From NCBI GenBank assembly GCA_948567375.1, contig OX419761.1:32960243-33024242 (forward strand): a stretch of DNA of 64,000 nt, read 5' to 3'. Each line of letters starts with the position of its first letter. The first letter of the stretch is position 1. This document shows positions 6,711-64,000 of this stretch, one piece after another. The stretch comes from Lunularia cruciata. Lineage: Eukaryota; Streptophyta; Marchantiopsida; Lunulariales; Lunulariaceae. The position numbers and the translations under genes were made by a program. The notes beneath the pieces are model-generated. The model made no database searches, was not told the origin of the DNA, and saw only the letters and a program-made list of their open reading frames with translations.

Positions 6711-6724
6711 AGATGATCCTCAAC

Positions 6725-7120: not shown

Positions 7121-7329
7121 GGCAATTACGATGGTGTCAATTGACTCCAAAATGAGTTTCAATCAACTTTACAACAAGATCCCTTCTTCCAAATGGTACA
7201 TGGTCACCTTACAACATGCGACAAAGAGCACAACACCTTCTCCATCAAGGAAGGCCTTCTATTCCATGAGGACCGGATCTATGTTCCAGCCAAAGGTGAT
7301 CTTTGACTTGTGCGCCTTTAAGAAGTCTA

Positions 7330-25970: not shown

Positions 25971-26678
25971 TGTAACACCCATATGTGCATGTGTGTGGTA
26001 TTGTGATATTTAACTTGGTATTACAAGTAATTAAGAGATATTATTTATATAGAGATAAAGGATGGTTCTATATTAGTCATGGTTAGCTAAGTTAGTCATA
26101 GCTAAAGCTAGTCATAGCTAGGATAGAGGGGACCTTACTTTAGAGGAAGTAGAAAAGATGAGCACCACTATTTTGGATTTTAGTGTGTTGACTTGGTATT
26201 ATTCTTAGGTGTTTTGGCTTTGAGGAAAGAGTTGAGAACTCTTGGGCCCGCAAGCCTTTTTGTTTTAGATTTTTCTTTAGTCCAAGGATAGCCCATGTGA
26301 AGGAATCCTTGACTTAGTGGTTGGGTCAAGATAGGACCACATGCTTAGGGGAATATGCCCATGTGAATGGATATTCCTTTCTACTTTTTGACTTTACTTG
26401 ACTTTTAGTCTAGTAACTTGAGTTACTACGGTAATTAGTAACTTTGGTATGTAACTATTTCACAAGTATATAAACAAGGGGTGAGGAGGTACTCATCATC
26501 CTTTCATTTGCAACTATCTCTCTCTCATTGAGTTCTCTAGTGAACAATGTCTTGAGTCTTGGAGTGTTAGCCTTGGAGGAGTATGATGGAGTTGGGGTTC
26601 CTTGCCTTCTTAGTCCATGGTGCGCTACCATAATAGCCATCAGAGGTTCATCCTGAGTGAGAGACAGGCCGGATCACA
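25971..26678 (+). repeat. Left LTR of D1
   Basis: TGTAACACCC at the start and GGATCACA at the end, aligned along its length with the other three family-D LTRs. Internal landmarks shared by all copies are TTGGTATTACAAGTA, GTTGACTTGGTATTATTC and AAACAAGGGGTGAGGAGGTA. Confidence 0.9.
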
Positions 26679-26965
26679 GTACAACTACAGAAATAATATC
26701 ACCTTCATCAACTAGTTCTCAAGATTAGTGATGGAGATAATCTTTCAACTTATGGATAAACTATCCATGAGATTTGATTAATATGCACTCTAGGATCTAA
26801 TGTTCCTATAGAAATATTAGAGTAACCTGAAACTTTTGTGTTACCTAGGGTGGATTATTCTCAAATGGTGTTAATCATGTATATACTCTATTAGTTATAG
26901 AGTGAGAGAAAAGAAAAGAAGAAAAGAAAAAAAGTGAGAGAAAAGAAAGATAGTGAGGAGTTAAG

Positions 26966-28429: not shown

Positions 28430-29133
28430 ATTGATGTGAGAGTGAATGGTCACAACATCAAGGATGCATTGGTTGATGGAGGATTAGCGCCATGAATGCC
28501 ATGTCAAAAAGGTTGATGAAGAAGTTGAGTGTGATACCCTCAAGACCTTCAATATTTGTGGTGAGCATGGCAAACAAGCAACAAGTTCAACCAGTAAGGG
28601 TGATGGATAAAGTGGTAGTTTCAATTATGGGAGTTCAAAATCTCATGATATTCCAATTCTTATAGGATCCAAGCTATGACTTACTTCTTGGGAGGCCATG
28701 GTTGAGAGCAACACGCACAAGTAATAAATGGCACAAAGGGTACTTGAGGATTGGACCATCAAACCATAGAGTCATAGTTCCTATGACCAACACCACCAAC
28801 ACTTCACATTCAGATACACCATCTTTTGATTATTGGGAATCAGATTCAGAAGAAGGAGCTTCAAGTATGGACACAAGCATGGAAGACAAGATTTCCATGG
28901 TGGAGGATGAATCTGAATCTGATTCAGATGTGTATTCCTTGTGTACTATGGATTTTACACCTAAGCTAAAGGTTTTGAAGGACCCAGATAAATCACCATT
29001 GACACTTGAGGAGATAAAGAGGAGGTTATCTACCCTCAAGTATGGTCCAAATGTTACCAAGAAGGAGAAGGTGAGAGTTGAGGAGATTTTCTGCAAGTTC
29101 ATCCATGTGTTTGCTTTTAGTACAAGGATCTGA
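28430..29133 (+). pseudogene. Protease and linker of element D1
   Basis: DALVDGGLAP (ending in TGA at 28493-28495), then in a shifted frame MSKRLMKKLSV and later YDLLLGRPWLRA is an aspartic protease with Asp-Gly-Gly at the active site and the Leu-Gly-Arg-Pro-Trp-Leu signature at 28675-28700. After it, 28702-29133 is an open acidic linker (SDSEEGASSMDTSMED and ESESDSDVYSLCTMDF) between protease and RT. A stop and a frame change break it. Confidence 0.75.
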
Positions 29134-30517
29134 AGGAAGTCACCTTGGAGGAGCACAAGATAGAGGTGGAGTCACATGCAAGACCAGTCCGCCAAAAGCA
29201 ACATTGCATTAGCTCACCAATTAGTTTTGGTTATGAAAGAGTAGAGTAGAGTAGATTGATAAGCTCAAGGAGGCGGGATTTATCTTTGAGGTGGAGAATT
29301 CAAAATGAGTTTCTCTAATTGTGATTGTGAAGAAAAAAAATTGCAAGCTTTGGGTATGTGTGTATTACAAGAAGCTCAATGTTGTTACCAAGAAGGACTA
29401 CTACCCATTACCATTCATTGATGAGATCTTGGAGAAGGTTGTAGGACATGAGAGGTACAATTTTGGAGATGGTTATAGTAGATATAACCAAATCAAGATT
29501 GCACCAAAGCATCAACAACTCACCACATTCACCACACCTTGGAGAACTTACACTTTCAAGGTCATGCCTTTTGGGCTTTGCAATGCTCCAACCACATTCC
29601 AATGGTTCAAACAAGGTATTTGAACCTTTCAATGGGAAATTTGTGAGAGACTTCATTGATGACTTTTGTGTCTATGGTAGCAAGGAGGAGCACTTTGAGC
29701 ACCTTATCAAGGTTGCACAACTCTTGGATGAGGCAAATGCATCACTCAACCCAAAGAAGTGCATTTTTGTATATGAAGAAGGTCTACATTTGATGCACAT
29801 CATCTCCAAGGAGGGAATAGTAGTTGATTTTGAGAAGGTGAGGAAAATCTCATACCTTCCATTCCCTTCAAGCTTGACAAAGTTACAACAATTCTTGGGG
29901 ATGGTTGGGTACTATAGGGTAAATATCTTCTTTGTTTCCAACAAGGCTTATGCATTGTCCATCTACATGAAGAAGGGTGTAGATTACATGGTGATTTTGG
30001 AAGACAAGGAGGCTCTCAAAGCTTTTGAGGAGCTCAAACAATCCCTTGTTGTAGCTCCAATTCTTGCTAAACCTGATTGGAGTGAGCCTTTCATCCTCTA
30101 CACTAATGCTTTTGATATAGCTATAGGATGCACTCTTAGTCATTTAGACCAAGATAGGCATGATCATCCAATAGCTTATGCTAGTAGGCAGATGGTTTTA
30201 GCAGAAAAGAACTACTCTGTCATGGAGAAGAAGGATTGGTAGTGACCTTTGGTCTCAAGAAGTTTAAACACTACTTGATTGGAGGGAAAGCCACCATTAT
30301 CATAGATCACAAGGCTTTGAAGTACATCTTCAACAAGCCTAATGTGGAAGGGAGACTAGCAAGATGGATGATACTCTTGTTTGAGTATGACTACACTATT
30401 GAGGATAGGCCAGGGAAGAATCATGCAAATGTAGATTTGTTCTCTAGGGCCTATGATGATGATGGAGATGAGCCAATGGATGGTTTCTTTGTAGATGAGG
30501 AGCTCATGACAATTTGA
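29134..30517 (+). pseudogene. Reverse transcriptase and RNase H of element D1
   Basis: The RT pieces are KDYYPLPFIDEILEKVVGHE, IKIAPKHQQLTTFTTPW, KVMPFGLCNAPTTFQW, then after a frameshift VRDFIDDFCVYGSKEEHFEH (catalytic Phe-Ile-Asp-Asp) and LTKLQQFLGMVGYYR. RNase H follows with LYTNAFDIAIGCTLS, where the first catalytic Asp is Asn, then HPIAYASRQM, a stop near 30242, and IIDHKALKYIFNKP. The equivalent D2 region has LYTDAS, so the Asn is a lesion of this copy. Confidence 0.88.
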
Positions 30518-30535
30518 GTCACTCAAGAGGTTCCA

Positions 30536-31850
30536 ATGAAGTACAAGGAGATTGCAGATTTTGTGACAACATGTAACTATCCAGAAGGGATGCATGCTAG
30601 AGAGAAGAAGGCTCTTGTAGCAAGATCTAGACCTTACACAATGGTGGAGGATATTCTTTTTCACCAAGGAGCAAATGGTCTACTTCAAAGAGCAATGAGT
30701 AAGGAAGAGTCTATCCTACTCATAAAGGAGTTTCATGAACGTTTAGTGTGTGGAGAATACTTTACAGGAAAGGGAACTGCTATCAAGATTCTAGATATAG
30801 GTTATCATTGGAGAGGGATTTTCAAGGATTGTCTTGATTATTGCAAAACTTGTCATGTTTGTAAAGCTTTTGCTAGAAAGTCTACATCCACTCCACCACT
30901 TAGATCAATTCCATTGCTAGGACCTTTTGAGAAGTGAGGAATTGATTTTGTAGGTCCTCTCAATAGAACCCCAAGGAACAATCTGTACATTGTGGTAGTT
31001 ACTAATTACTTACCAAGTGGGTTGAGGCTAGACCATTGAGGGACAAGAATGAAGATTAAGTGGGTAGATTTCTTTATGAATGCATTATCACTAGGTTTGG
31101 ATGCCCTTTGGAGTTGGTTCTTGATAGAGGAGGAGAGTTTACAAGAAGCATCACTATAGCCATGCTACAATATTTCTCTATCACACATAGAGCAGCTACA
31201 TCATATAAGCCAAATTCCAATGGCTTGGCATAGAGAACCAATCAGATCTTGTGCATGATGTTGGGTTTAGATGCAAAAATGGAGGGGGCTAAACATCATT
31301 GGGACAAGAGGATTCATGCAGTTTTGTTGGAGTATAGGACAACCATAAAGACTTCCACTGGATATTCCCCATTTCAATTGGTATATGGTATTGAGTCTAC
31401 CTTACCTATTCACTTTGATCTTCCTACCTTCCAAAGCATTCATAGGAGATTGAAGAAAGCATAAGGAGGTGATATAGAGAAGTCAAGGAAGGAACAACTC
31501 ATGGAGTTGGAAGAGGCAAGAGCAATTGCTATGGTTTGAGTGGAGCAAGCCCAAAGGAAACAAAAGGAGAGCTATGACAAGAGGTAAGGCAAGAAGAAGG
31601 TGGAGCCATTCAAAGAAGGTGATTGGGTAATATTGTTTGATTCCATTCGATCACGAGAGTGCAAAAGAAGTTTTTTCCTACATACTTTGGACCTTTCATA
31701 GTGTAGAAGGTGTGGGGCAATTACACCTATGATCTCAAGAAGTTGGGAGGAAGACACTGTGATAGGATTAACCATGATAAGTTGAAGATGTATCATAGAA
31801 GGTAGAGAGACTGTCACTTTGAGGACAAAGTGAAAACTTAGTCCGGGGGT
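30536..31850 (+). pseudogene. Integrase of element D1
   Basis: The HHCC zinc domain is recognisable: HERLVCGEYFTGKG, then CLDYCKTCHVCKAFARK. The core has GIDFVGPL (with a stop just before it, probably Trp to stop), LDRGGEFTRSI and SYKPNSNGLA followed by a stop where D2 has the catalytic Glu. The C-terminal part (31249-31464 and beyond) has WDKRIHAVLLEYRTT, STGYSPFQLVYG and PFKEGDWV before a Tyr-Asp-Leu-Lys-Lys segment. No chromodomain follows. Both nonsense changes in the core show that this copy cannot integrate. Confidence 0.87.
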
Positions 31851-48260: not shown

Positions 48261-48356
48261 CTCTAGAGGCCCTTGGCCTTCATACAAGAAATCTTTGAAC
48301 AACTTGGAGAGATGCATTGAAGAGGAGGAGGTGGAAATCACTTTGAAAAATGAAGA

Positions 48357-48854
48357 TTGCCAGTAAATGTACCTTGTAGCCTTACTGGCTCAATAAGGAA
48401 GCAAAAACGCAAGGAAAGGAAGAAGACAAGCGTGCAAAGGTCCCAAAAGGCAACCTCACAATTGATTGTCATGGATAGAGTACTAAAAGGCAATCAAGTG
48501 AGAGTATTAATGGATCCAAAAGCAATAGAGAATTTCTTGTCTTGCTCTATTGCAATAAGATTGGGAATGGATCTAGAGAGAGATGAGAGCAAAGAAGTAG
48601 AGTTACCTAATGGGCAAATAGAGATGTTTGAATCATTACCTAGATGGGTAACACTCTCTATAGGAGAATACCAAGAAGCAATTGAGTGGCAAGTGATACA
48701 ATTAGCTCATTATGATGCAATCTTAGGCAAACCATGGATGGAACATTACAACTCTATGGTAGATTGGAGGAAAAAAGAAGTGAGAACACACCAATGGTCG
48801 ATCATTGGATTAAGGAAAAATCACATAGGCAAGAATTACCTCTCTATGTCATAG
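48357..48854 (+). pseudogene. Aspartic protease remnant of element E
   Basis: An uninterrupted 165-codon frame. RVLMDPKAIENFLSCSIA occupies the place of the retropepsin active site, whose Ser/Thr-Gly is changed to Pro-Lys. ELPNGQIEMFESLP, LAHYDAILGKPWMEHYN and VDWRKKEV follow, matching the flap and the Leu-Gly-x-Pro-Trp signature. The frame is intact, but the enzyme is inactive because of the altered centre. Confidence 0.8.
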
Positions 48855-48879
48855 GGGCAACAACTATTTATAAGACCAA

Positions 48880-50310
48880 TAGATGTTTCATGGGTCTAAT
48901 ATGAGAAGTCTAGAGTGCATAACTTGATGGACAAGTTCCTAAGAAATTGAAGGATGTGGTAAATGAGTTTCAAGATAGTGTTTCCTTGAAGTTCTACTAT
49001 TAGGATTACCACCAAAAAGGAGAGTAGATCATAAAATCGAGACACTCTCGGGGAAGATAGCTCCTTGTAAGGCCTCATATCGGCTATCACCTCATGAATT
49101 GGAGGAGTGTAAGATTCAAATTGAGGACATGCTACAAAAGGGTTCATCCAATCCAATGTATCCCCATATGGTGCTCCTGTCTTGTTTGTGACGAAGAAGG
49201 ATGATACAATGCGCATGTGCATTGACTATCAAGGTCTCAATTAGCAAACAATGAAGAACAAATATCCATTTCCTTGCATGGATGACTTGTTTGATCAACT
49301 CAATGGAGCAAGACACTTCACCAAACTGTACTTGCAAAACGGTTACAATCAAATCCAAATTGCAAAGAAGTATGTGTACAAAATTGCCTTTTGAACTAGG
49401 TATGGCCACTTCGAGTATCTCGTGATGCCTTTTGGCCTCACCAATGCACCTCCCACATTCATGAGTCTAATGAATGACATATTTTTTCCATATTTGGATA
49501 AGTTTATTATTGTCTTCTTAGAAAACATCTTAGTATACAATAGCATGATGATGGAACAAAAACAACATCTACGAGAAGCCTTCCAAATTCTAAGATAGAA
49601 TTGATTGTACGCCAAAATCTCAAAGTGCAAGTTTGGCAAGTTTGAAGTAGACTACTTGGGGCATAGAGTAAGTGTAGAGGGTATTTAAGTATTGATAGAT
49701 AAAATAGAGGTCATTCAAAAATGGAGTGCCCAAGAAGATCAGACTCAACTCAAGAGCTTCTTGGGGTTGATATGATTCTATCATCAATTTTTTAAGGACT
49801 TCTCCAAGGTTGCACAACCTTTAAAGACACTACTTGGCAAGGGAAAGAAGTGGACGTGGAGAACTGCACAAGAGTTGGTCTTTAAAGAATTGAAAGCCGC
49901 CTTGCTACATGCACCAATCTTGAAGTGGTATGATCCAAAACGTCCAATCAAGTTGGCTATATGCATCATATGTAGCAATAAGATCAGTCCTACAACAAGA
50001 GTTGCATGACGGATGACATCCAATTGCATATTTCTCTCAAAAGTTGTTATTGGTAGAGCGTAACTATCATACCATAGAACAAGAAGAGTCGGCCATTGTC
50101 CTTGCAACCAAGCATTGGAAGCACTATCTAGGTGTGAAGGCATTTATAGTAGAGACAAACCATAAACCTCTAGTCTACCTCAAGATGTAGAAAGATCTAT
50201 CTCGTTGCCAAATTTGGTGGGCAGAGTGGCAACAATACTTCAATATGACAATCACCTACATGGAAGGTAAGAAGCAACTTGTAGATGCATTCACCTACAT
50301 GCCAATGGTA
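48880..50310 (+). pseudogene. RT and RNase H remnants of element E
   Basis: [76 protein letters not shown], then [12 protein letters not shown] in place of the catalytic Phe-Leu-Asp-Asp (both Asp changed). FGKFEVDYLGHRVSVEG and the FLGL segment follow. RNase H (49900-50250) is broken by frameshifts, with IAYFS-like, HKPLVYLK and MPMV-type sequence. The loss of both catalytic Asp residues is unusual for simple decay but is explained by a few transitions. Confidence 0.85.
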
Positions 50311-50429
50311 AACAATTCGGTGGCAAAGGTTACAATTAACCCTAAATTCTGGCCATAGATTTTGGCTGCTACAAAAATTAATCCATAGATTGTAGGAGTG
50401 TGATCATCCAAAGGCATCACTAGCACCCA

Positions 50430-51260
50430 AAGACTCACCTTTTGTGATGCAAGATTATGGATCCCAAATGTCCTAAAATTATGCACCACCATTCTAGTGG
50501 AATGTCATGATTTGGCCATTGCAAGTCATGTCGGAGTGGAAAAGACTTTGGATGCAGTCTAGTGCCATTACTATTGGCCCAAGATGAGCAATAATGTGAT
50601 GGACTACGTGCACAACTACTCACTCTATTAATAGAACAAAGCTTCTAATCAAGCTCCTGTAGTGCTCCTTCAACCTCTCCCCACTCCTACACAATGTTGG
50701 GAACAAGTGAGTATGGATCTTGTCTGTGAATTACCCAAGACCACCTCAAGGTTTGACTCCATTGTGATCTTTGTGGACCGGCTCAACAAAATAATTCATG
50801 TATGCCCTACCATCAAGGATGTGACTGCTCCAAAACTAGCTCAATTTTACTTAGATATAGTCTTTTCTCACCATGGCTTGTCTTGAGTACTCATCACCAA
50901 TAGAGGCATTCAATTCACCAGTTTGTTTTGGCAAACACTCTTTGGTTTCTTCAAAACCAAGTTGGCCATGTCCACAACTTACCACCTACAAATAGATAGA
51001 CAAACAAAGTGGGCTAATTGCACTATTGAAGACATCTTGGGCGGTTTCACCTTAGAGGAGCAAGAGAGATGGGACCCTACTCCCATTGGTGGAATTTGCT
51101 TACAACAATTTGGTGAATGCATCCACCCGTGTCACTCTATTCTTCCTCATGTATGGTGAGCATCCCTTCACACCTTCTAGCTTGATGAAGATCCGTCTGG
51201 TGGCTACCAAGGTCGACGCAACCAACACATTTGTTTCTAGAATCCAACAAGGTGTAGAGA
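50430..51260 (+). pseudogene. Integrase remnant of element E
   Basis: SHVGVEKTLDAV and CHYYWPKMSNNVMDYVHNY (zinc domain), WEQVSMDLVCELPKTTSRFD (first Asp), FSHHGLS then LITNRGIQFTSLFWQTLFG (second Asp is Asn), YHLQIDRQTKWANCTIED (catalytic Glu is Lys), and FAYNNLVNASTRVTLFFLMY. Two of the three DDE residues are replaced by G-to-A type changes. Confidence 0.85.
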
Positions 51261-52650: not shown

Positions 52651-52656
52651 TATGTT

Positions 52657-52759
52657 GTGCGTATATACATCGCTACACAACATACATCGCTGTAAGCATC
52701 ATACACTATAGAAACACAACTCACACATAAGTCATACATAGACTCTAAAGTGCCACAAT
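52657..52759 (-). repeat. Outer copy of a 103-bp direct repeat at the 3' end of element C
   Basis: Collinear and without indels against 53215-53317. On the minus strand both begin ATTGTGGCACTTTAGAGTC and end at GATGTATATAC. The intervening 455 bp (52760-53214) has no coding. Either the C LTR is about 660 bp with matching ends, or its LTR is only about 100 bp and the pair bounds a miniature element. Confidence 0.85.
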
Positions 52760-53214
52760 AATCAGATTTCTTAACATTCTCAACTCAACTCAACTCAGAT
52801 CAATACTTGATCTGTCACTCTATAAACTGCCAACAACTGGGCACTGATTACAGTCAAGCCACACCCACTCAAACATAGAGAATCCAGGTGACGCTCGCTG
52901 GCCTCTGTCCACCATAGCCAGGAACTCGAAGGCTCAACATCAGAGAAGTGAGCTCTTTGGAGCTCACTTTGAAACTATACCCCCCTGGACTCGAGCTAGC
53001 ATTGGAACCCTAACGGTCCCGCTGACGGCATACTTGACGGTGCAAATGGTGCAAAGTGACGGTGGGCCTCACCGTGAAGTCAGTACCCCGAACACCAAAT
53101 CAGACTGTCGGAAAGTAGTCCCTGAGAAACTACTAGAATAACTCTAACTACTATCACTGGAACTCCAATGTCCGAGTAGGTAGATGCGGAACTACAAATG
53201 GCGTGACAGCTGTC

Positions 53215-53317
53215 GTGGGTATATACATCGCTACACAACATACATTGCTATCAACATCATACACTATAGAAACACAACTCACACATAAGTCATACATAGA
53301 CTCTAAAGTGCCACAAT
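53215..53317 (-). repeat. Inner copy of the 103-bp direct repeat, probable start of the 3' LTR of C
   Basis: Directly after the polypurine tract AGGGGGGCG (minus strand) the sequence TGTGGCACTTTAGAGTC starts, as an LTR should (TG after a purine run). The remainder of the LTR is uncertain because the other LTR of this element is lost to the D2 insertion. Confidence 0.7.
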
Positions 53318-53326
53318 CGCCCCCCT
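53318..53326 (-). promoter_or_regulatory. Polypurine tract of element C
   Basis: AGGGGGGCG on the minus strand immediately before TGTGGCAC. It lies about 160 bases after the PHD finger stop codon. Confidence 0.7.
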
Positions 53327-53484
53327 AGCTGGCGGTTAGGTCCCTCTAACTCCAGATAGCCATCTACTCTAAGTATATGGTATACCCTCTAATGGGCAAA
53401 GATCAGGAGGCCGGGTGCTATGGAGCCCCATCGTTAGTCACCTATCTGCAATCTATACCATATAAAGAATGAACTAGCTATAGG

Positions 53485-53640
53485 TCAAGTACATCTAGGA
53501 CATAACCACTGTCCCTGAGGAACCACCGTGAGGGGAGGAGTCATACATGCCATATGCCATCCTCTCGAACAGCTATCACACACTAACATAGTAGCAACTC
53601 CACCAAAAGAGCCACATAACATACACCTCAAGCTTGCACG
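53485..53640 (-). pseudogene. PHD finger at the C-terminus of the element C polyprotein
   Basis: In the last open frame of the element (stop at 53485) the minus strand reads LRCMLCGSFGGVATMLVCDS, CSRGWHMACMTPPL and QGQWLCPRCT. The ligands fit Cys4-His-Cys3 of a PHD finger, including the Trp two residues before the final Cys pair (WLCPRC) and the aromatic before His (GWHMAC). PHD fingers often bind histone H3 tails. Here it occupies the place of the chromodomain in chromoviruses A, B and E, downstream of integrase, so a role in integration-site choice is the obvious inference. It is continuous with the sequence upstream to 53961. Confidence 0.9.
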
Positions 53641-54906
53641 TACAAGTGCCAAGCTTGGGTCCATAGTACCATCAATGTTTGGAAGGTGGCATGGCGCACA
53701 ATTGCGCACATGATCCTTCCAAACAACACCATCACGTCCTTCTAACACAAGGACTCCGGATGGCAAAACCTCACGCACTCTCAAGATAGTGCGGCCTGTA
53801 GAAACATCAAGTGTCGTCGGTGCTATCTGCTGTAGATATACATAGTTGCATGGATGAAATCGACGGATCGAGGGTCTATAACCTCCTCCTTGAATGGTAG
53901 CATAGCGTAAAGTATCTCTATGCTGAGCAATCGCCAAGTTCTCAAAGGCCATCGGCATCACTCTTCAAAAAATCTCTGCCCGCTGAGAACATGCGCTCAT
54001 CCATACATCGGGGTCATCCAAGTCCAAAACTACAGTAGCATCTTGACAAATGGCTGCAAGTAAATCTGGATCTCATCCAGAGAGTAGAAAGTATGGAGAG
54101 AAGGATGCTAAGGAGGCTTGCCGGCTGAACCGATAGCCCATGGCCAACCAAGGTAACTGGAGATCCCAATCTCCCAAGTGGCCTCTCTACAAACCATACT
54201 TTTGCAATCCTCTCTTCACTGTCTGAACCACTCTCTCTGCTAAGCAATCTGCCTCAGGGTGATTGCGGGATGTAGTACGATGATCAATCAAAGCCTTGTC
54301 ACACAAGACCTGAAACTCTCCCAAGAACTCTGTACCCTGATCAGTCAAAACCTCAGCTGGTGCACCAAAATGACTAAGAACTCGATCTGGGAATGAGTAA
54401 GCTGTCCCTTCACTAGACTTGTCAGGAAGTGCCACCAACTCAATCCACTTGGAGAAGTGCTCCACCATCACCAAAACATACCGATGATGTCTCACAGTCA
54501 GCGGTAAAGGTCCGGCAAAGTCCAAACTCCAACAGTAATCCAATCCCATGATAGGTAGTGGGTGTAACTGTGGCGTAGGAGCATTGAATGATGCTCTAAC
54601 TCGGTCACAAACCATACATCTGGCAACAAATTGCTATACCTTGGTCTGCATACCACGCCACCAATAATGACTCTGAAGTAAGCTATATGTACGCTTTACT
54701 CCAAAATGTCCTAGCTCCTCATGAGCATGATAGACCAACTGTGGTCTCTGTGATGGAAGTGGTACTACTCGCACTCTACCATCCTCCCATACACGCAAAA
54801 GGTGTCTACCCTCCAATCTGAACCGTCTGGCTTGGTGAAGAACACAGTCTCTCTCCTTGGCCCCAACTGTGCCACCCACAACACTAGTGCAAAGATAGTC
54901 CATCAC
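53641..54906 (-). pseudogene. Integrase of element C
   Basis: The zinc domain has HAHEELGHFGVKRTYSLLQS, HYWWRGMQTKV, a TAG, then QFVARCMVCDRVRAS. The catalytic core has LDYCWSLDFAGPLPL (Asp), EVLTDQGTEFLGEFQ (Asp) and SRNHPEADCLAERVVQ (Glu), so all three acidic residues are present. WDLQLPWLAMGYRF and an RFHPCNYVYLQQ beta-barrel-like C-terminal segment lead into the PHD finger. In-frame TAG after GLQKYGL and two TGA codons interrupt it. All look like single C-to-T changes from CAG or CGA. Confidence 0.9.
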
Positions 54907-55530
54907 TAAGACATCATCATGAATGTCTTGCTGAACTGTACCAATATCTTCACTCTTTGGATCTGTGACCTCAATAACTCCTCATGTATGCGTTGAGAGA
55001 GATACCACCAAAGTCTCTGCAAATATACACAGAAAGGCCGATGCATGCCAACCTGGCACCATCTCCTCATCTGTCTCACCATGCCAACGTGCTCCGGTCT
55101 GATCCTACTGGCTGGGACATGGGTTTCTACTCAACCCATCTGCATCACGGTTCACCACTCCAGGTCTCTGAACAACCGTGAAATCATACTCCTGTAAAAT
55201 CAGAGCCCATCGTGCAAGCTTCCATGAAAGCTTGTCGGACTCCATCAACCACTTCAGCGGCTGATGATCAGTGATGAGAGTGAAGGGGTTACCAAATAGG
55301 TAACATCGGAAATGTGCTACTGCCCAAACTGCTGCCAAGCACTCTCCCTCATATGAACTATACTTCGCCTCTGTTGAATTGTTGGAGCGACTAGCATAGG
55401 CCACCACAAACTCCTTCTCCTCATCATCATGTTGGGTGAGCACCGCTCCAAGCCCCAACATACTCCAATCAATGTGAACTTGAAATGGTTGTCCCTTGAT
55501 CGGTCTCCTCAAAATAGGAGCAGATGTCAA
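54907..55530 (-). pseudogene. RNase H of element C and linker to integrase
   Basis: FQVHIDWSMLGLGAVLTQ (first Asp), FVVAYASRSNNSTEAKYSS, YEGECLAAVWAVAHFR (catalytic Glu), FTLITDHQPLKWLMES (Asp) and LILQEYDFTVVQRPG form a complete retroelement RNase H. NRDADGLSRNPCPSQ then a TAG marks the end of the open stretch at 55105. A linker with one more TGA joins it to integrase. Catalytic residues appear intact. Confidence 0.9.
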
Positions 55531-55578
55531 CCTCTCCTTGAGCTCTACAAAAGCTCTCTCTTGCTCATCTCCCCAACA

Positions 55579-56580
55579 CTACTCCTGTGTAAGCTTGGTT
55601 AGCTTCGTCAAGGCCTTGGCAATGGCACTAAATCCTCTAACATAGCGGCGATAGAAGTTTGCCAACCCAAGGAATGCTCGCACTTTGCTCACATCCGTAG
55701 GCCAAGGAATACGTGCAATAGCCTCCACCTTGGTCTGCTGGACACAAAGTCCTCCGGGGTAGATAGTGTGACCCAAATACTCAACCTGCTCGTGGAAGAA
55801 CCTACACTTCCCAGGATGTAATTTGAGTCCATGAGATCTCAACCTCTCAAACACCTCCAACAACTGTCTCTCATGTTCCTCCACAATAGTGCTATAGACC
55901 AAAATATCATCAATATAACACCGAGCAAAATCCAATCCAGCTAGGATCTTATCCATGACCCTCTGGAACTCAGTAGGAGCATTCTTCAACCCAAATGGTA
56001 AGAACCTCCACTGATATAACACATCCTTGCCGTGAGGATCAATAGCCCAAAATGCTGTCTTGGACTTATCCTCCTCCTTGATCAGCAACTGATGATATCC
56101 CGCTTGAAGATCCAAAGTACTGAAGACCTTTGCATGCCCAATCGCATCAAAAATCTCCTCCGGTGTAGGCATGGCATACCGATCAGCCCTGGTCTGTCGA
56201 TTGATAGGATGGTAATCTCCACACATCCGCCTATCTGTATAGTTGCCATGCATATCCTTCTTGGCTGGCATCACTGTCGCTGATGCATACTCTCCATGTG
56301 AAATCTCCACCAAACCAGCCTCAAAAAGGTCACTACTCCGGCTCTGAATCAATGTCCTCTCCATATCACTATATCGATAAGGACGTTGGAAAACAGGTGT
56401 GTCGCTAGTCAGCTCAATCCGTATACCAGGTCCCTTCAGAGCACCCAAATCCTTCATACTAAAGGCAAAACAACTCGTGTGACTCCTCAAGAACCTCCAA
56501 ACCCTCCGTCTTTCCTCTCCAGTAAGCTTGGGTCCAAGATCTGGCTCCCAAGTATCCTCTGTAACTATAGTAGGAGTAGA
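55579..56580 (-). pseudogene. Reverse transcriptase of element C
   Basis: A long open frame (from about 56580, ATG at 56490) with PDLGPKLTGEERRRVWRFL, IRIELTSDTPVFQRPYRYS, VMPAKKDMHGNYTDRRMCGD, KVFSTLDLQAGYHQLLIK, WRFLPFGLKNAPTEFQRVMD, CYIDDILVYSTIVEEHERQL (catalytic Tyr-Ile-Asp-Asp) and FLGLANFYRRYVRGFS. All RT motifs are intact. The frame ends with a TAG at 55579, after which the RNase H continues. The methyltransferase lies directly upstream in the polyprotein, an unusual place for an extra enzyme. Confidence 0.93.
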
Positions 56581-56899
56581 AGACGTACTAACTGGCTGCT
56601 ACACTGGGCCCTTGGGAGCAATAGTGTCATGCTCCCGACCACTAGAGGTCCCAACCTCTGTGTGAAAAACTCCCTCCACTCTGGCTGCAAGCTCCACACG
56701 TCCTCTGGCTGCATCCTATGTGGACCAAGGGTGTAATCCAAGCAGCCCACGCTCACCTGGATGGACTCCAAGTAGACCACTCTCCCTAGTAGCTACTAGA
56801 TGTGTCCCAAGAATACCATGTCCACTCGGTCCATCGCCCCCAGCATGTGCCTGAATTGTCTCGATAGGCATAGGGCTCACAAGTGTCCGAGTGGTGATG
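56581..56899 (-). pseudogene. Linker between methyltransferase and RT in element C
   Basis: A Gly/His-rich segment (GLLGVHPGERGLLGLHPW; 56830-56720) and a frame with SVGCLDYTLGPHRMQPEDVW lead into RT. The first part consists of short repeats of LLG-x-HP and may be a flexible spacer. No catalytic motif is seen. Confidence 0.6.
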
Positions 56900-57990
56900 C
56901 CTATCAAGCGCATCCTACGCTGCTCTGCCAAACCAAGGCTCACAATCCAGGTCAAACAGTTCAGGTCCATAGCTTGACCTAACACTTGACACCTGGATGC
57001 CTCTGACATTGCTGGAATAGCGGTAATACCAGTGTGAAAACCCATCGCCCGCTCTCTCTCATCAGCATTGGGCTCCACCAACTACTGTAACTGTGAGTCC
57101 CAAACAAGTCCAGGTCCTCCTTCTCGAAAAGCATGAGAGCCTGGGAAACTCATGAGTGTGGGAAATGCAACTCTAGGCTGTCCAACTAGGTTCACCACTG
57201 CCATAGGTGACCTATCAGCCACTACCACTGTCTGAGACTGACGTCCAACATCCAAGATATCATCAACAAGAATGTGGTCTAGTTGCTGAATCCCATCATA
57301 ACTACGCTGTAAAACCTCTCTGGGTAAGAGGTTTGTCCACCAAAGACAAAGACGATGAGCCCGTGATCCCACTCTGGCTGCATCTAACAATACAGCAAGT
57401 CCCATGATGTGTACTCGCCACCACTCTAGTGCAAGAATCACCCATCAATGGGACGTTCTCCAAAAGGTAAGCTGGAGAAACAAACTGATGAACTTGGAGA
57501 TGTCGTAGTATCCGTAACATCTCCCAAAACACACCAGAATGAGGATCCTAAAGACCCAAACCATGGCCCGCACGTGTATGTCCCTGACATGGCCATCCAG
57601 AAATCACCAAGTGAATAAGCCCATGTCTCTCTAGGTCATGCGCCCCCAGTAAGGAAATGTCTCCTGGTAAGGCCTTCTGGTAATCTCTGACTGCTGACAT
57701 TGGTAATAACTCCGGATACCGATAGGCCAAGTGTGCCACATGATGTAGAGAGACTCGCCTAGCAGTCTCATCTCTCTCTACATACATGTACCTTTGTACT
57801 TGGATACCCGCCTGTAACACCGCAGCTAGTCCGGTGCTAATCCCACCAAACAACTCCAATAGGCATATCCCCTCTACTGGGTACTGCCAAGCAATGAGTG
57901 TGGTATCCAGAGGTGTCAAAGCAATCACCTATAGAGGCTCATCCTCACACCCATCCCCTAATGGTACAAAGGCTCCACTCCAAGCCTGTT
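56900..57990 (-). pseudogene. C5-cytosine DNA methyltransferase domain, DNMT3-like, inside element C
   Basis: Minus-strand motifs in canonical order: I, CLLELFGGISTGLAAVLQAG (S-adenosylmethionine site); II, YMYVERDE; IV, VISGWPCQGHTRAG with the catalytic Cys codon at 57587-57589; VI, AYLLENVPLMGDS (Glu-Asn-Val); VIII, RVGSRAHRLCLWWTNL; IX, PNADERERAMGF; X, LGQAMDLNCLTWIVSLGL. Motif I followed by GIQVQRYMYVE, and SRAHR before the WWTN segment, look most like DNMT3, not MET1/CMT or the rearranged DRM. The enzyme would transfer a methyl group to cytosine C5. TAG codons follow GHGLGL and DSQLQ, and one frameshift lies near 57440, so this copy is dead. It sits between protease and RT, in the same orientation and register as pol. 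Confidence 0.92.
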
Positions 57991-58084
57991 GCACCAACTG
58001 ATCTGCATGTTGCTACAATGCCTCCTCTGAACTCCACAATGGAACATCCAAGGTGGATGGAACAATCCCACTTGTACTCCAAAG

Positions 58085-58440
58085 TCAAGTGATTTCCTCT
58101 GGTACTGGAGTATCCTCTGCATGGGCGTTCCCCTCTAACAAGTCACCAGGCCAAGTAACTGCACCGCTGAAAGCTAAAATTGATGCTGCCATGGTCTCGG
58201 ATTGTAGTGAGCCAAGATTGCCACTACTGAAGCGTACTGGTAGGCGACATACCCGTCCCTCACCAGACTGCCAACCAGGTCTATAAGAGGCTGTTTCCTC
58301 CCAATAGTCAATGCTGAAACCCATGGGGTATAAGACTGCTCCCCCAACTAGCACATCATATGACTCAGCTATTGTCGCAATAGCCTGAGCTCTCACCACT
58401 GAGCTATCAGTCGGATGACCAGGCTGAACCTAGAAAACAA
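58085..58440 (-). pseudogene. Conserved-looking module between protease and methyltransferase in element C
   Basis: The open stretch 58399-58085 contains IAESYDVLVGGAVLYPMGF, SIDYWEETASYRPGWQSGEG and RVCRLPVRFSSGN. YDVLVGG resembles the Leu-Gly region of retropepsins, so the first part may complete the protease. The Trp/Tyr-rich part after it is not part of a standard protease and is not known to me. One TAG precedes it near 58432. Confidence 0.6.
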
Positions 58441-59464
58441 GCTCTCCATGTGTGATGTACTGTGTTGAACCACCACCAAGAGATGTCTGGATCTGAAATG
58501 GACACCTCTCCACATCGGTCTTCCATAACTCCAGACCGACAATTGTAGCCTTCCCCAACATAAGGGGCTACGCACCAGAGTCTAACAAGACTCTGTGTGG
58601 TGTATAGACCTTCCCTAAAGGTCCCACCAAACAAAAAATCCCCCTTTGGTTATCCAATAGGACAACACCAGGTGTAAACCGTGCTCTCTCAAAGGCCGGT
58701 CTAGCTGGCAACTCCTCCAGTCTAGCCGTTGCTGCTTGCCATAAACCACTGGTCGCTGAACGGATCCCATGCTCCTCAACCAAGTCAGATCCACTACCAA
58801 CCACCTCTGCTCTAGTAGTAGGAACTGCACCATCCCTACTCTCACACAACGTGGCAGCCAACCGGAACAATAGGGTTGGGTCAACTCCCAATGTAAACAT
58901 ATCATTGGCTGAAAACAAAGGATGCCGCATAATCAGCTGAGCCGCCCCCAACATCATGCTAGACTCAATCTGTGTAGTAGCAGGTGGCTGACTAGCAGGT
59001 ACTCCATCAGGTACTCCATCACCACCTACCACACCTGCACTGGGACGTCTAGGAACCATGGATGTCGTCTGTAATGCCTTAGATAGCGTGAAAGACTGGG
59101 GAAGTCTGACCTGTCTCCCAACCTCTCCTCTCTGTGGGTCCAACTCCACTGATGCTCCTCTAGGCTCTGGAGCACATACTGCACTCCTAGTCACTACTGC
59201 AGATGCATCCACCTGTGCTGCTCCGCACATGAAGTCCAAAGCATCTCTATCACCAGCATATGAGGTGGAAGCCTCAGCACCCGAATCTGATCTCCTTTGA
59301 GCAATAACCATACTAGCCAATCTCTGCTCCAACTGCTCAATCCGAGTAGCCACAGCTATGTCAGAAGTAAGGGCAGGTACTGCACCCCTACTAGGTATAG
59401 ATCCTCTACCACCACCTCTACCACCTCGTCCTCCATGAACTGGAGCTCCTCTACTACCTGCCAT
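58441..59464 (-). pseudogene. Gag C-terminal/linker and aspartic protease of element C
   Basis: The frame 59464-58568 begins with Gly/Arg-rich GGRGGRGGGRGS (an RGG-like RNA-binding box), continues with a coiled segment RIEQLEQRLASMVIAQRR and a long low-complexity linker. It then reaches VLLDNQRGIFCLVGPLGKVY and HRVLLDSGA, whose Asp-Ser-Gly-Ala is the retropepsin active site, at 58568-58590. A TAG follows immediately, then PLMLGKATIVGLELW in frame, so the protease is cut right after its active site by a probable CAG-to-TAG change. Confidence 0.82.
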
Positions 59465-59662
59465 AGCAGCCCTACCACTCCGTAACTCCGGGTGTAGGTC
59501 AAAACACCGGTCACTAGTGTGACCAAATCTGTGGTAGTGCTCACACTACCTCTGTGTTGGCTGTGATGCACCAGAGGTATCAGGTCCGCTGCCCTGAGTA
59601 CACTCTCTCCTATGGTGAGGTCCACCACAAGTCCAACAAGCAACACCACCACTCACTGGCTG
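59465..59662 (-). pseudogene. Zinc knuckles of element C Gag
   Basis: Two Cys/His clusters on the minus strand: CWTCGGPHHRRECTQG near 59640-59590 and CEHYHRFGHTSDRCFDLHPE near 59535-59480, separated by a TAG. The second resembles the Cys-x2-Cys-x3-Gly-His-x4-Cys knuckles of plant retroelement Gag proteins, although its second ligand is His here. Such knuckles package the RNA genome. Confidence 0.75.
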
Positions 59663-60817
59663 CTACTGACCCAAAAATGAGGGTAAGGGTCTAACTCCAC
59701 TAGGCCCTCCACTCGCTCTATAGGATCTGGGCTGTCCACCCTGTCCTCGAAAACCAACTGGGCGTGGTGCACTCTGCTGCACTCTAGAAGAAGTCACAAC
59801 CGTGGATGAGGTCTCTCTACCAAATCCAGCTGTCATCACTCTCTCCTCCACCATGTTGAGCTCGATACACTCAGCCAAACCAAAGACTACTACCAAAGTC
59901 GGCGGAGTAGCCTGCAACAACGTAGCATCACGAACTCTACGTCGCAACTCCCTGTCCAATATCCCATACCAAAACTGGACTGCTTGGGCCTCAGTAACTC
60001 CCTGAGTGAAACTGATCAGCTGCCTCATGTGAGTATATGCCTTGCGTAGGCTCTCTCCAGCCTTCCGCTGGAACTCCTGCAAGCTCCTCAGCTTGTCAGT
60101 CCGCACTCCCTGGTAGTTCTACCTCAAACACAAGAAGAACTCCACCATGGGGTTAAACCCCGGTACCACACCACCTCCTGCAGCAGTACCTCCACTCATA
60201 GTAGCACTATCTCCAGCTAGTGCACCTCCACTAGCTCCACCAACACTACTCGAGCTAGAACTCGTAGGTACAGCCGATCTACTCCTGGCCACCAAGCCTA
60301 AAGTGATGGAGACATAGTGTGGAGACCAATACTATCTCCATAACTCAATCTCCTCCAAATGAGCTCTCCTGAACTCATGGTAGTCATCCATCGGCAGACC
60401 CTCCAAATGCTGAAACAACCCCTTCCATGCCATGAAGGGTGTGAACAAAGTCGGGTTCCGCATCTGCTGCTGATCACACCAACTATCAAACTCCTGGATG
60501 AAGTCATCCAACTCAATGGTACCCACTGTACCAGAGTAATGCCTAGGGCCTTTGGAGGCCCCATAAATCTCGTCCATGTCCCACAACAATGGTGCGGACA
60601 CACCAAGTGCGCTCTCAACTGAATCAGCTCTTGTGTCAAACTCCAACTCAGAGTCAATCTCCTCCCTCACTGGGACCTGAGATATAGGCTGATACCGAGC
60701 ACCACTCAGAGTAAACCCACAGCATACTACAGGGCTAACTCCTCTAAAATCTCCAAAGAACTCCGTCGTGACCACGTAACTGCAACAACAAACCCAAACC
60801 ACCAACTGCAACCGCAA
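59663..60817 (-). pseudogene. Gag capsid region of element C
   Basis: The first part (60817-60332) includes VGTIELDDFIQEFDSWCDQQ and LEGLPMDDYHEFRRAHLEEI, a Gag-like helical region. After TAG codons the second part (60106-59663) has SLQEFQRKAGESLRKAYTHM, RQLISFTQGVTEAQAVQFWY and ELRRRVRDATLLQATPPTLV, the standard capsid C-terminal pattern. An Arg/Gly/Pro-rich tail leads to the zinc knuckles. The true start codon is not certain. Confidence 0.82.
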
Positions 60818-61165
60818 GTCGCAACTGCAAGTGCCCCACCAAGTGCCAACACCAACTAGACACCACCCACTAATGTAACTCTAACCAAGATAACTACACT
60901 AGGGGAAAGGCAACCTGTAACCTGCCATCATAACATGCACTCTCACGGTCTGCATGTCATCACTTCCTGCCTCACCAAAGAGAAACAAAGGTAGTCTGAC
61001 TGGTCATCACTTTAGCCTCACCACCGAGAGCACACCAGAGCACCAACGCTCAAAAGTCAGGGCACCTCACACAAACATGGTGCACAAACAGGAAGTAGAG
61101 AATGGAGGGGATCCAATCACAAGAAATCTAAACGAAAACCCTCCATCTCATAACACAACACGGGA
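60818..61165 (-). other. Leader of element C
   Basis: Between the primer site and the first gag open frame there is no motif-bearing ORF. The minus strand is G-rich. An untranslated leader carrying packaging signals would be expected here. Confidence 0.5.
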
Positions 61166-61182
61166 CTGACTCTGCCACCATT
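61166..61182 (-). other. Putative primer-binding site of element C
   Basis: On the minus strand TGGTGGCAGAGTCAGTC follows AATGCCAAA, which looks like an LTR end (CA plus a few bases). It begins with TGG, complementary to a tRNA CCA tail, but it is not the initiator tRNA-Met site used by elements A and E. I cannot name the tRNA. Confidence 0.5.
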
Positions 61183-61233
61183 TGGCATTTGACATAAGAG
61201 CAGTTCGTATCTAAGTCCTAAGCTACCAGGATC
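61183..61233 (-). repeat. Remaining end of the 5' LTR of element C
   Basis: About 50 bases between the primer site and the D2 LTR. On the minus strand CAGATCCTGGTAGCTTAGG leads to ATGTCAAATGCCA. No match was found in the 52.65-53.32 kb region, so it cannot be confirmed as LTR from this window. Confidence 0.4.
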
Positions 61234-61923
61234 TGTAAGCCGGCCTGTCTCTCACTCAGGATGAACCTCTGATGGCTATTATGGTAGCGCACCATGGACT
61301 AAGAAGGCAAGGAACCCGAACTCCATCATACTCCTCCAAGGCTAACACTCCAAGGCTCAAGACATTGCTCACTAGAGAACTCAATGAGAGAGAGATAGTT
61401 GCAAATGAAAGGATGATGAGTACCTCCTCACCCCTTGTTTATATACTTGTGAAATAGTTACGTACCAAAGTTACTAATTACCGTAGTAACTCAAGTTACT
61501 AGACTAAAAGTCAAGTAAAGTCAAAAAGTAGAAAGGAATATCCATTCACATGGGCATATTCCCCTAAGCATGTGGTCTTATCTTGACCCAACCACTAAGT
61601 CAAGGATTCCTTCACATGGGCTATCCTTGGAATAAAGAAGAATCCAAAAGAAAAAGGTTTGCGGGCCCAAGAGTTCTCAACTCTTTCCTCAAAGCCAAAC
61701 ACCTAGGAATAATGCCAAGTCAACACACTAAAATCCAAAATAGTGGTGCTCATCTTTTCTACTTCCTCTAAAGTAAGGTCCACTCTATCTTAGCTATGAC
61801 TAACTTTAGCTAACCATGACTAATATAGAACCATCCTTTATCTCTATAAATAATATCTCTTAAGTACTTGTAATACCAAGCTAAATATCACAATACCACA
61901 CACATGCACAAATGGGTGTTACA
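61234..61923 (-). repeat. 3' LTR of element D2
   Basis: On the minus strand it begins TGTAACACCCATTTGTGC and ends GGCCGGCTTACA, aligned in full with the D1 LTRs and with 24206-24891. It is inserted into the 5' LTR region of element C, so D2 is younger than C. Confidence 0.92.
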
Positions 61924-62865
61924 TTTACCCCCGGACTAAGTTTTCACTTTGTCCTCAAAGTGAAGGTCTCTCTACCTTCTATGGTACATCTTCAACTTAT
62001 CATGGTTAATCCTATCAAAGTGTCTTCCTCCCAACTCCTTGAGATCATAAGTGTAATTTCCCCACACCTTCTCTACTATGAAAGGTCCAAAGTACTTAGG
62101 CAAAAACTTCTTTTGCACTCTCTTGAATCAAATGGAATCAAACAACATTACCCAATCACCTTCTTTGAAAGGCTCCACCTTCTTCTTGCCTTGCCTCTTG
62201 TCATAGCTCTTTTTTTTTTTCCTTTGGGCTTGCTCCACTCGAACCATAGCAACTGCTCTTGCCTCTTCCAACTCCATGAGTTGATCCTTCCTTGACTTCT
62301 CTGCATCACTTCCTTGTGCTTTCTTCAATCTCCTATGAATGCTTTGGAAGGTAGGAAGATCAAAGTGAATAGGTAAGGTAGACTCAATACCATACACCAA
62401 TTGGAATGGAGAATATCTAGTGGAAGTCTTCATGGTTGTCCTATACTCCCACAAAACTGCATGAGTCCTCTTGTCCCAATGATGTTTAGCCCCCTCCATT
62501 TCTGCATCTTTGGCCAACATCATGCACAAGGTCTGATTGGTTCTCTCTGCCAAGCCATTGGAATTTGGCTTATAGGATGTAGTTACTCTATGTGTGATAG
62601 AGAAATGTCGTAGCATGGCTGTAGTAATGCTTCCTGTAAACTCTCCTCCTCTATCAGAAACCAACTCCAAAGGGCATCCAAACCTAGTGATAATGCGTTC
62701 ATAAAGAAATCTACCCACTTCATCTTCATTCTTGTCCCTCAATGGTCTAGCCTCAACCCACTTGGTAAGGTAATCAGTAACTACCACAATGTACCGATTG
62801 TTCCTTGGGGTTCTATTGAGAGGACCTACAAAATCAATTCCCCACTTCTCAAAAGGTCATAGCAA
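61924..62865 (-). pseudogene. Integrase catalytic core and C-terminal part of D2
   Basis: The frame has PFEKWGIDFVGPLNRTP (first Asp), VVVTDYLTKWVEARPL, LVSDRGGEFTGSITTAMLRH (second Asp), YKPNSNGLAERTNQTLCMML (catalytic Glu), YSPFQLVYGIESTLPIHFDL and KKKVEPFKEGDWVMLFDS. A stop follows near 62127, then QKKFLPKYFGPFIVEKVWG-type sequence and DKLKMYHRR in frame. No chromodomain. All three DDE residues are intact. A TGA just before PFEK separates it from the zinc domain. Confidence 0.88.
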
Positions 62866-64000
62866 TGGAATTGATCTAAGTGGTGGAGTGGATGTAGACT
62901 TTCTAGCAAAAGCTTGACAAACATGACAAGTTTTGCAATAATCAAGACAATCCTTGAAAATCCCTCTCCAATGGTAACCTGCATCTAGAATCTTGAAAGC
63001 AGTCACCTTTCCTGCAAAGTGTCCTCCACATACTAAACCTTCATGAAACTCCTTTATGAGTAGGATAGACTCTTCCTTACCCACTGCTCTGCGAAGTAGA
63101 CCATCTGCTCCTTGGTGAAAAAGAATATCCTCCACCATTGTGTAAGGTCTAGATCTTGCTGCAAGGGCCTTCCTCTCCCTAGCATGCATCCCTTCTGGAT
63201 AGTTACCTTTTGTCACAAAATCCACAATCTCCTTGTACTCCATTGGAACCTCTTGAGTGACTGAGATTGTCATGAGCTCCTCATCCGGGAAGGAATCATC
63301 CACTGGCTCATCTCCATCATGATCATAGGCTCTAGATAATAAATCAGCATTTGCATGTTTCTTTCCTGGCCTATCTTCAATGGTGTAGTCATACTCAGAC
63401 AAGAGTATCATCCACCTTGCTAGTCTCCCTTCAACATTAGGCTTGTTGAAGATGTACTTCAAAGCCTTGTGATCCGTGACAATGGTGGCTTTCCCTCCAA
63501 TCAAGTAGTGTCTAAACTTCTTGAGACCAAAGATCACTGCCAACCCTTCTCTCTCCGTGACAGAGTAGTTCTTCTCTGCTGAAACCATTTGCCTACTAGC
63601 ATAAGCTATTGGATGATCATGCCCATCTTGGTCTAATTGACTAAGAGTGCATCCTATAGCTACATTAGAAGCATCAGTGTAGAGGATGAAAGGTTTACTC
63701 CAATCAGGTTTAGCAAGAATTGGAGCTACAACAAGGGATTGCTTGAGCTCCTCAAAAGCTTTGAGAGCCTCCTTGTCTTCCAAAATCACCATGTAATCTA
63801 CACCCTTCTTCATGTAGATGGTCAATGCATAAGCCTTGTTGGAAAATGAGAAGATGAACCTCCTATAGTACCCAACCATCCCCAAGAATTGGCGTAACTT
63901 TGTCAAGCTTGAAGGGAATGGAAGGTCTAAGATTTTCCTCACCTTCTCAGGATCAACTGCTATTCCATCCTTGGAGATGATATGCCCCAAAAGTAGACCT
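62857..64000 (-). CDS. End of RT, RNase H and integrase zinc domain of D2 (partial, continuous)
   Basis: A 377-codon frame without a stop, cut by the window edge. It starts with GHIISKDGIAVDPEKVRKIL and LTKLRQFLGMVGYYRRFIFS (RT thumb), then RNase H with PFILYTDASNVAIGCTLSQL (first Asp), HPIAYASRQMVSAEKNYSVT, EREGLAVIFGLKKFRHYL (Glu) and ATIVTDHKALKYIFNKPNVE (Asp). The zinc domain follows with KEFHEGLVCGGHFAGK and CLDYCKTCHVCQAFARKS. All catalytic residues are present, and the polyprotein would act in reverse transcription and integration of the D family. The TGA at its end may be a single G-to-T or readthrough site in an otherwise functional copy. Confidence 0.88.
   Translation of the reverse strand, partial: GLLLGHIISKDGIAVDPEKVRKILDLPFPSSLTKLRQFLGMVGYYRRFIFSFSNKAYALTIYMKKGVDYMVILEDKEALKAFEELKQSLVVAPILAKPDWSKPFILYTDASNVAIGCTLSQLDQDGHDHPIAYASRQMVSAEKNYSVTEREGLAVIFGLKKFRHYLIGGKATIVTDHKALKYIFNKPNVEGRLARWMILLSEYDYTIEDRPGKKHANADLLSRAYDHDGDEPVDDSFPDEELMTISVTQEVPMEYKEIVDFVTKGNYPEGMHARERKALAARSRPYTMVEDILFHQGADGLLRRAVGKEESILLIKEFHEGLVCGGHFAGKVTAFKILDAGYHWRGIFKDCLDYCKTCHVCQAFARKSTSTPPLRSIPLL

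Follow-up and report, generated by a model that had tools for sequence, protein, structure and literature searches.

Retrotransposons carrying a DNMT3-like cytosine methyltransferase are known from the alga Klebsormidium nitens and from dinoflagellates, where KnitGypsy-Dnmt3 and SymbioDIRS-Dnmt3 have been described (PMC5890265). The initial annotation of the sequence studied here had pointed to precedents in dinoflagellates and charophyte algae. According to a paper of 2019, such transposons are absent from land plants such as tracheophytes (PMC6338049), and a further paper treats streptophytes in general (PMC12344493). Here, a window of 64,000 nucleotides from the liverwort Lunularia cruciata (contig OX419761.1, positions 32,960,243 to 33,024,242) was analysed. 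At 52653-61233 on the minus strand it contains the remnant of a Ty3-like element in which a DNMT3-like methyltransferase (MTase) lies between protease (PR) and reverse transcriptase (RT). The host being a liverwort and the family being present in its genome, the suspected extension to land plants holds. By sequence comparison this Ty3-like family encodes its own DNMT3-like MTase together with a PHD finger, for which a course of enzyme dosing, cDNA marking, targeting and restoration of the element ends is proposed as fairly probable.

In the initial annotation seven motifs of C5-cytosine methyltransferases had been placed in canonical order between protease and RT, on the strand and in the register of the pol genes. 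Their positions agree with that order:

56944-57868, minus strand: DNMT3-like C5-cytosine methyltransferase domain, motifs I-X, with a frameshift between VI and VIII
57806-57868, minus strand: motif I
57761-57790, minus strand: motif II
57566-57610, minus strand: motif IV (GWPCQG)
57455-57472, minus strand: motif VI (AYLLEN)
57322-57384, minus strand: motif VIII (SRAHR..WWTNL)
57037-57066, minus strand: motif IX (ERERAMGF)
56944-56994, minus strand: motif X

The strand was also correct, but the common register was not found in the window copy, in which motifs I-VI and motifs VIII-X are read in different frames, the latter in that of RT. A common frame for Gag, PR and MTase does exist in open copies, but a UAG codon parts the MTase from the RT segment. 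With the frameshift and further stops, the window copy is dead.

Scanned singly, three of the broken MTase pieces of the window gave no Pfam match at E<=1, and the kinship of the domain was therefore established through other copies. Compared with the 327-aa MTase of another copy, window pieces matched residues 1-110 (E 2e-65), 112-159 (E 4e-25), 160-270 (E 5e-64) and 272-327 (E 9e-30). With E values from 4e-25 to 2e-65, the likeness is not due to chance. In copy L006 the profile PF00145 scored 33.8 bits (cut-off 22). Motifs I-X with PCQ and ENV are present in the order characteristic of C5-cytosine methyltransferases; all of 22 aligned relatives keep EN in motif VI, and PC in motif IV occurs in at least 90% of them, the exceptions being P0027 and P0056. 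DNMT3 (DNMT3A-B) was nearest by profile, DNMT2 being far weaker (2e-4), and it was also nearest by predicted fold, where the best alignments to the solved structures searched had identities of 23-26%. Judged by profile and predicted structure, the element MTase is a C5 methyltransferase nearest to DNMT3. Membership in this superfamily and the DNMT3-like signature are thus as annotated, and a rearranged DRM enzyme was rejected, as it had been initially, because motif I comes first and VI-X do not precede I-IV.

The whole Lunularia genome (565.8 Mb) was searched for further copies. With PF00145, 123 scored matches were obtained from 2,161 candidates, mostly over positions ~48-120 of the profile and with open frames of up to 1,428 aa. 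Copies were counted with conserved 28-mers allowing up to 3 mismatches; the reversed patterns used as controls had 0 matches in every case. The 28-mers had been picked on 21 copies, 20 of them found via the MTase, and the RT and PHD counts are independent of MTase presence. The 28-mer of MTase motif IV occurred at 4,094 places, that of RT at 4,920 and that of the PHD finger at 5,462. MTase places thus amount to 83% of RT places, which suggests that most family copies carry the MTase. A methyltransferase confined to one copy, which according to the initial annotation would have spoken against the proposal, was not what was found. Many copies are decayed. L009 and L010 contain a single 1,428-aa frame for Gag-PR-MTase, and L013 and L014 a 1,037-aa frame for RT, RNase H (RH), integrase (IN) and PHD.

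A single in-frame UAG parts the two frames. In all 21 copies compared, among them the window copy, it is followed by CAG-YYA, and the corresponding place of the distant relative L032 reads UAG-CAA-UCA. The context CARYYA is the published readthrough context of Tobacco mosaic virus and is reported to act in many other cases, especially in plant viruses (PMC4132726). The MTase is thus encoded on the Gag side of a stop that, by analogy, is probably leaky.

Taken together, the copies show the full anatomy A1-leader-[Gag-PR-MTase]-UAG-[RT-RH-IN-PHD]-purine tract-B1-A2-B2, of which PHD finger, UAG and split repeats had escaped the initial annotation. In the window the following parts were recognised besides the MTase:

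52653-61233, minus strand: whole Ty3-like element remnant, 5' truncated and without the A1 repeat (blastn against other copies)
59600-60880, minus strand: Gag region with broken frames and a CCHC zinc knuckle at 59600-59638
58571-58588, minus strand: aspartic protease motif LLDSGA (motif reading)
56593-56601, minus strand: stop codon UAG in frame (56599-56601), with CAG CCA after it as in readthrough contexts, separating MTase from RT
55579-56598, minus strand: RT (PF00078, E 1.7e-30), motif YIDDI at 55903-55917
55105-55578, minus strand: RNase H (E 1.9e-85 against another copy)
54187-54981, minus strand: DDE integrase in two pieces, zinc-binding region and core (PF00665, E 1.2e-12; motifs LDFAG, LTDQGTEF, PEAD)
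53491-53625, minus strand: C-terminal PHD finger (PF00628, E 2.1e-10)
53317-53330, minus strand: polypurine-like tract AGCTAGGGGGGCGA directly before B1; a similar tract in L032
53211-53316, minus strand: repeat B1
53202-53216, minus strand: B1/A2 junction ACGACA-GC-TGTCACG; the same 15-mer in L032
52759-53208, minus strand: repeat A2 (A1 lost from the window copy)
52653-52758, minus strand: repeat B2, ending in CA, the 3' end of the element

The Gag pieces at 59663-60118 and 60332-60880 resemble the start of the open ORF1 in L009 and gave no Pfam match of their own; the retropepsin profile PF13650 was found in the relatives P0017 and P0092. The order PR-RT-RH-IN and the DDE integrase place the element with Ty3/gypsy, and no tyrosine recombinase profile was detected in the ten window pieces scanned with Pfam.

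The ends of the element are unusual. No long direct repeat was present between 50,000 and 64,000 of the window, the longest being 107 nt, and a canonical element with two complete identical terminal long terminal repeats (LTRs) was rejected. Instead, the layout A-coding-B-A-B was found in all 13 copies in which both ends were read (L012, L014, L018 and ten further copies). Their 5' end consists of A1 only, their 3' end of B1 (106-107 bp), GC, A2 (~450 bp) and B2. The copies start with TGTCACG and finish with ACGACA (TG...CA), and perfect 4-bp target duplications flank 12 of the 13 (3/3 and 9/10, the tenth differing at one of four bases). L025, a shorter copy of the form A-coding-B, also has an exact 4-bp target duplication. 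The divergence between A1 and A2 is 1.3-7.6% in ten copies, whose 16-base A2/B2 joint does not vary at all. A 29-mer round the near-palindrome B/A had 2,238 matches genome-wide (<=3 mismatches) and the A1-leader joint 2,674, with a control of 0 in both cases. In L032 the identical 15-mer B/A junction stands ~100 bp after the purine tract, as in the window family.

The purine tract lies directly 5' of B1 and the leader directly 3' of A1. Since these are the places of the plus- and minus-strand primers in LTR elements, a reverse transcription product B-A-coding-B-A would be expected, relative to which the integrated A-coding-B-A-B is shifted by one B. The leader after A1 has ATCAGAG, as in an initiator-Met primer site, but the stretch is too short to claim one. 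The shift could arise if the cDNA ends were completed on the internal junction before ordinary integrase action, or if the integrase opened either B/A junction of a two-repeat circle at random. The positions of exact sites, 100 of A1-leader and 44 of B/A among the matches listed (sites with changed bases are absent from this survey), bear on the choice. Within 1.2 kb upstream of the 100 A1-leader sites no exact B/A was present among the matches listed, whereas 5-16 kb downstream there were 29 pairs, 23 of them at 8.82-8.94 kb, and completion of the ends is therefore preferred. Random opening of a circle would explain the shift from the [B-A]-coding-[B-A] cDNA predicted by purine tract and leader, and L032 was assembled as a closed loop, though repeats alone suffice for that. 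It should, however, produce A-B-A-coding-B as often, of which no example with an upstream B/A was seen among the matches listed, and the identity of the A2/B2 joint in ten copies is unlike end joining; this course of events appears improbable.

Some further observations concern the repeats. In self-BLAST of 20 ten-kb stretches B...B was found in 18 (not in L017 and L025) and one short A in L010; some unrelated or neighbouring repeats were also detected. The 77-bp A of L010 was dismissed as a true 5' end, since other copies show L010 to be rearranged, and the start of L016 proved wrong as 5' end of the element. For L017 the 5' end was sought and not found. Tandem B-A-B units in L019 (8442-9942, element orientation) and another, related 5' leader next to the L013 copy (9040-9611, element orientation) suggest tandem or neighbouring insertions. 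Near the end of B1 and B2 (53211-53316 and 52653-52758) GTATATAC resembles a TATA box, which at B/A would start transcription inside A. Integrated copies have no B before A1 from which their transcription could start in this way.

Relatives were looked for in searches each scoring the 8,000 candidates that shared most words. Those named by source come from Marchantia polymorpha, Calypogeia fissa, three Sphagnum species, Closterium and Monoraphidium, and many metagenome proteins were also obtained. Two architectures were recognised. In the first, found in bryophytes, Closterium and L032, the MTase precedes RT. In the second it is located between RNase H and integrase; Monoraphidium, in which the MTase comes after RNase H, and 17 metagenome polyproteins with RT-RH-MTase were assigned to it. 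A PHD finger is present in 16 of 20 proteins of the second architecture with integrase, the other four ending at most ~15 residues from the integrase match; for the first it is present in the window family, L032 and Marchantia P0028. In the RT-RH-IN tree, calculated without L032, the second architecture forms a clade (100/99, 16 rows) and the first is not one resolved clade; some of the architecture labels used there were assigned from fragments. The simplest interpretation would be a single capture of the MTase, which was later relocated, but there may have been two separate captures.

The tree of the MTases qualified the DNMT3 affinity assumed initially. All 32 element MTases fall on one side of a 100/100 branch and nine plant DNMT3 genes, including that of the host, on the other. 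The branch is long (1.09 changes per column), with arbitrary rooting, unsettled bootstrap and long-branch warnings. The element MTases would accordingly form a deep, separate retrotransposon lineage, and their capture from the DNMT3 of this host is disfavoured. The DNMT3-like gene of the host (L001) extends over at least two exons and is sister of MpDNMT3b; its exons share 61% identity with Marchantia, 59% with Riccia, 55% with Calypogeia and 44-48% with the mosses among the matches listed. A DRM-like host gene (L002) has the rearranged motif order. The Sphagnum element P0093 groups with the Marchantia elements to the exclusion of the Lunularia copies, at 96/86 with Calypogeia in the MTase tree and at 99/97 in the RT-RH-IN tree, unlike the species tree; this could indicate horizontal transfer or old sublineages.

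A bacterial origin was rejected. The sole match in GTDB, L032, consists of an entire retroelement on a contig of 9.3 kb from a cyanobacterial metagenome-assembled genome (AVDCRST_MAG81), most likely eukaryotic contamination or carry-over. It appears complete, with MTase and PHD, and is self-closed by a 57-bp end overlap. P0031 is filed under a metagenome-assembled genome of Candidatus Obscuribacterales. Phage methylases showed less than 60% identity in all 413 records and 22.9-31.8% among the matches listed (12). Two viral contigs match weakly (27% and 32%); one of them, L034, has a 417-aa methylase frame.

Between the Lunularia elements and several proteins of Marchantia elements, identity is 64-73% for the MTase, 69-79% for RT (at least 200 residues), 78-80% for RNase H, 59-62% for Gag and 46-62% for PR. 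The pooled ratio of nonsynonymous to synonymous substitution rates (dN/dS) in stop-free copies (number in brackets) is 0.465 (11) for the MTase, 0.454 (8) for RT, 0.225 (10) for RNase H, 0.655 (9) for integrase, 0.286 (20) for PHD, 0.254 (5) for Gag and 0.350 (20) for PR. By these values the conservation of the MTase is about equal to that of RT.

The likeliest role for these parts, as far as sequence can suggest one, would be methylation of cDNA or target by a Gag-borne MTase, with the PHD finger guiding the integrase. Most ribosomes would halt at the UAG, so that the MTase would be made with Gag in quantity and packed into the particle, and RT-IN-PHD would be produced by a minority reading through. 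The MTase could then methylate new cDNA before or at integration, and the copy would arrive premarked. The PHD finger could direct insertion to nucleosomes whose H3 tail is unmodified, much as the chromodomains of chromoviruses do, and the internal B/A junction would restore both ends of the element, which the DDE integrase would then join to target DNA. The solved structures nearest to the PHD finger include those of CHD4, KMT2D, DPF2/3, KDM5B and PHF21A; several of these proteins read unmodified H3K4.

Several points weigh against this proposal. The ligand of the PHD finger is a guess from such likeness. The dN/dS values are biased to low values by the limitation to stop-free copies, and that of the MTase is mild. 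CpG is not depleted in the element (observed/expected 0.44 versus 0.35 in window 1-52000), nor is CHG (1.17 versus 0.52), and hence there is no footprint of extra methylation relative to that part of the window. The intact fused copies anticipated in the initial annotation were found only as regards the MTase frame, which is open in some copies; the 20 copies read include none with both long frames whole and so give no support to recent activity of the whole element. KnitGypsy-Dnmt3, the closest system of this kind to have been tested, produced no methylation in yeast, a result called inconclusive by its authors (PMC5890265).

Instead of cDNA, the MTase could modify in trans the target site or the chromatin of the host, by compacting neighbouring chromatin, by competing with host silencing or by damping the element's own rate. 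The PHD chromatin reader accompanying it in both architectures would fit, and for the algal case insertion-site effects and a damping role are discussed by its authors (PMC5890265). Yet the UAG parts MTase and PHD here, which would leave most MTase without PHD, and the place beside Gag suggests work inside the particle; action in trans is therefore considered unlikely, though the most serious of the three alternatives for the MTase. An RNA substrate, either genomic RNA or primer tRNA, or a structural part in Gag with catalysis secondary, would agree with the linkage to Gag, with the yeast result and with the RNA role proposed for LINE-borne DNMTs (PMC5890265). The conservation of EN and PC in the relatives and the far weaker match to DNMT2 than to DNMT3 speak against such a role, which we regard as quite improbable. 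That the MTase is a passenger, obtained by recent or chance capture of a host DNMT3 and of no use to the element, could be imagined from the broken window copy and the many decayed ones. It is very hard to maintain given the separation of all element MTases from the plant genes, dN/dS and cross-species identity similar to those of RT, and MTase places in the thousands.

Other Ty3-like remnants in the window are located at 26957-30934 and 48354-50883 and 5944-7675 (plus strand) and at 62131-63999 (minus strand). They hold pieces of gag, protease, RT/RNase H and integrase, and no MTase match was obtained in them. Frames at 25554-26009 (minus) and 61885-62295 (plus) start near-identically (ISQYHTHA.MGVT), indicating another repeat shared within the window. 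The frame at 16555-17088 (plus) is glycosyltransferase-like by eye, with no Pfam match at E<=0.01; a host gene region is possibly present around 11-20 kb.

A literature search, with subscription journals mostly outside its reach, revealed nothing beyond PMC5890265 on MTase-bearing retrotransposons and no bryophyte report of them, and among the papers listed nothing on Gypsy or DDE-integrase elements that have split direct repeats or on a PHD finger with integrase and Gypsy. As far as seen, the land-plant host, the scale, the PHD finger, the UAG context and the target duplications with conserved B/A junction are new. By means of the MTase the element may be able to place an epigenetic mark of its own, and relatives in Marchantia and Sphagnum, which are laboratory or genome models, offer a land-plant test of why transposons carry a silencing-type enzyme. 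The reader-writer pair, the dosing on the Gag side and the split repeats with DDE integrase provide concrete, separable predictions. Only tentatively can all be combined into an ancient green-lineage clade that would possess a writer (DNMT3-like and, in this family, dosed with Gag before a leaky UAG), a reader (PHD on the integrase) and, in place of ordinary LTR replication, a split-repeat cycle in which the conserved palindromic B/A, ACGACAGCTGTCACG, would restore the ends for a DDE integrase, a Ty3/DIRS hybrid.

Among the described systems, KnitGypsy-Dnmt3 shares with the window family Gypsy domains, an unrearranged DNMT3-like MTase in the polyprotein, a DIRS-like repeat arrangement and reported purifying selection (PMC5890265). 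This likeness is drawn from the published description, no match in the relatives searches being named Klebsormidium. The window family differs in its land-plant host, thousands of copies, C-terminal PHD, readthrough-type UAG and 4-bp duplications; in the accessible main text on KnitGypsy-Dnmt3 the words PHD and protease are absent, and target duplications are not mentioned (PMC5890265). SymbioDIRS-Dnmt3 of dinoflagellates is alike in having a DNMT3-like MTase in the polyprotein and two domain orders, but is a tyrosine recombinase element, whereas the window family has a DDE integrase (PMC5890265). Of host DNMT3 and animal DNMT3A-B, the latter is nearest in profile and fold; in the tree the element MTases are on a separate branch, and DNMT3 is a stand-alone gene while the element MTase is flanked by PR before and RT after it. 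Chromoviruses, the chromodomain Ty3 elements, carry a chromatin reader at the C-terminus of the integrase; in the window family a PHD finger takes the place of the chromodomain and a writer enzyme is added. PAT/DIRS elements have split direct repeats A-coding-B-A-B and are tyrosine-recombinase elements, which are not known to have a DDE integrase, TG..CA ends or 4-bp duplications. The window family shares their split direct repeats and differs from them in exactly these three features.
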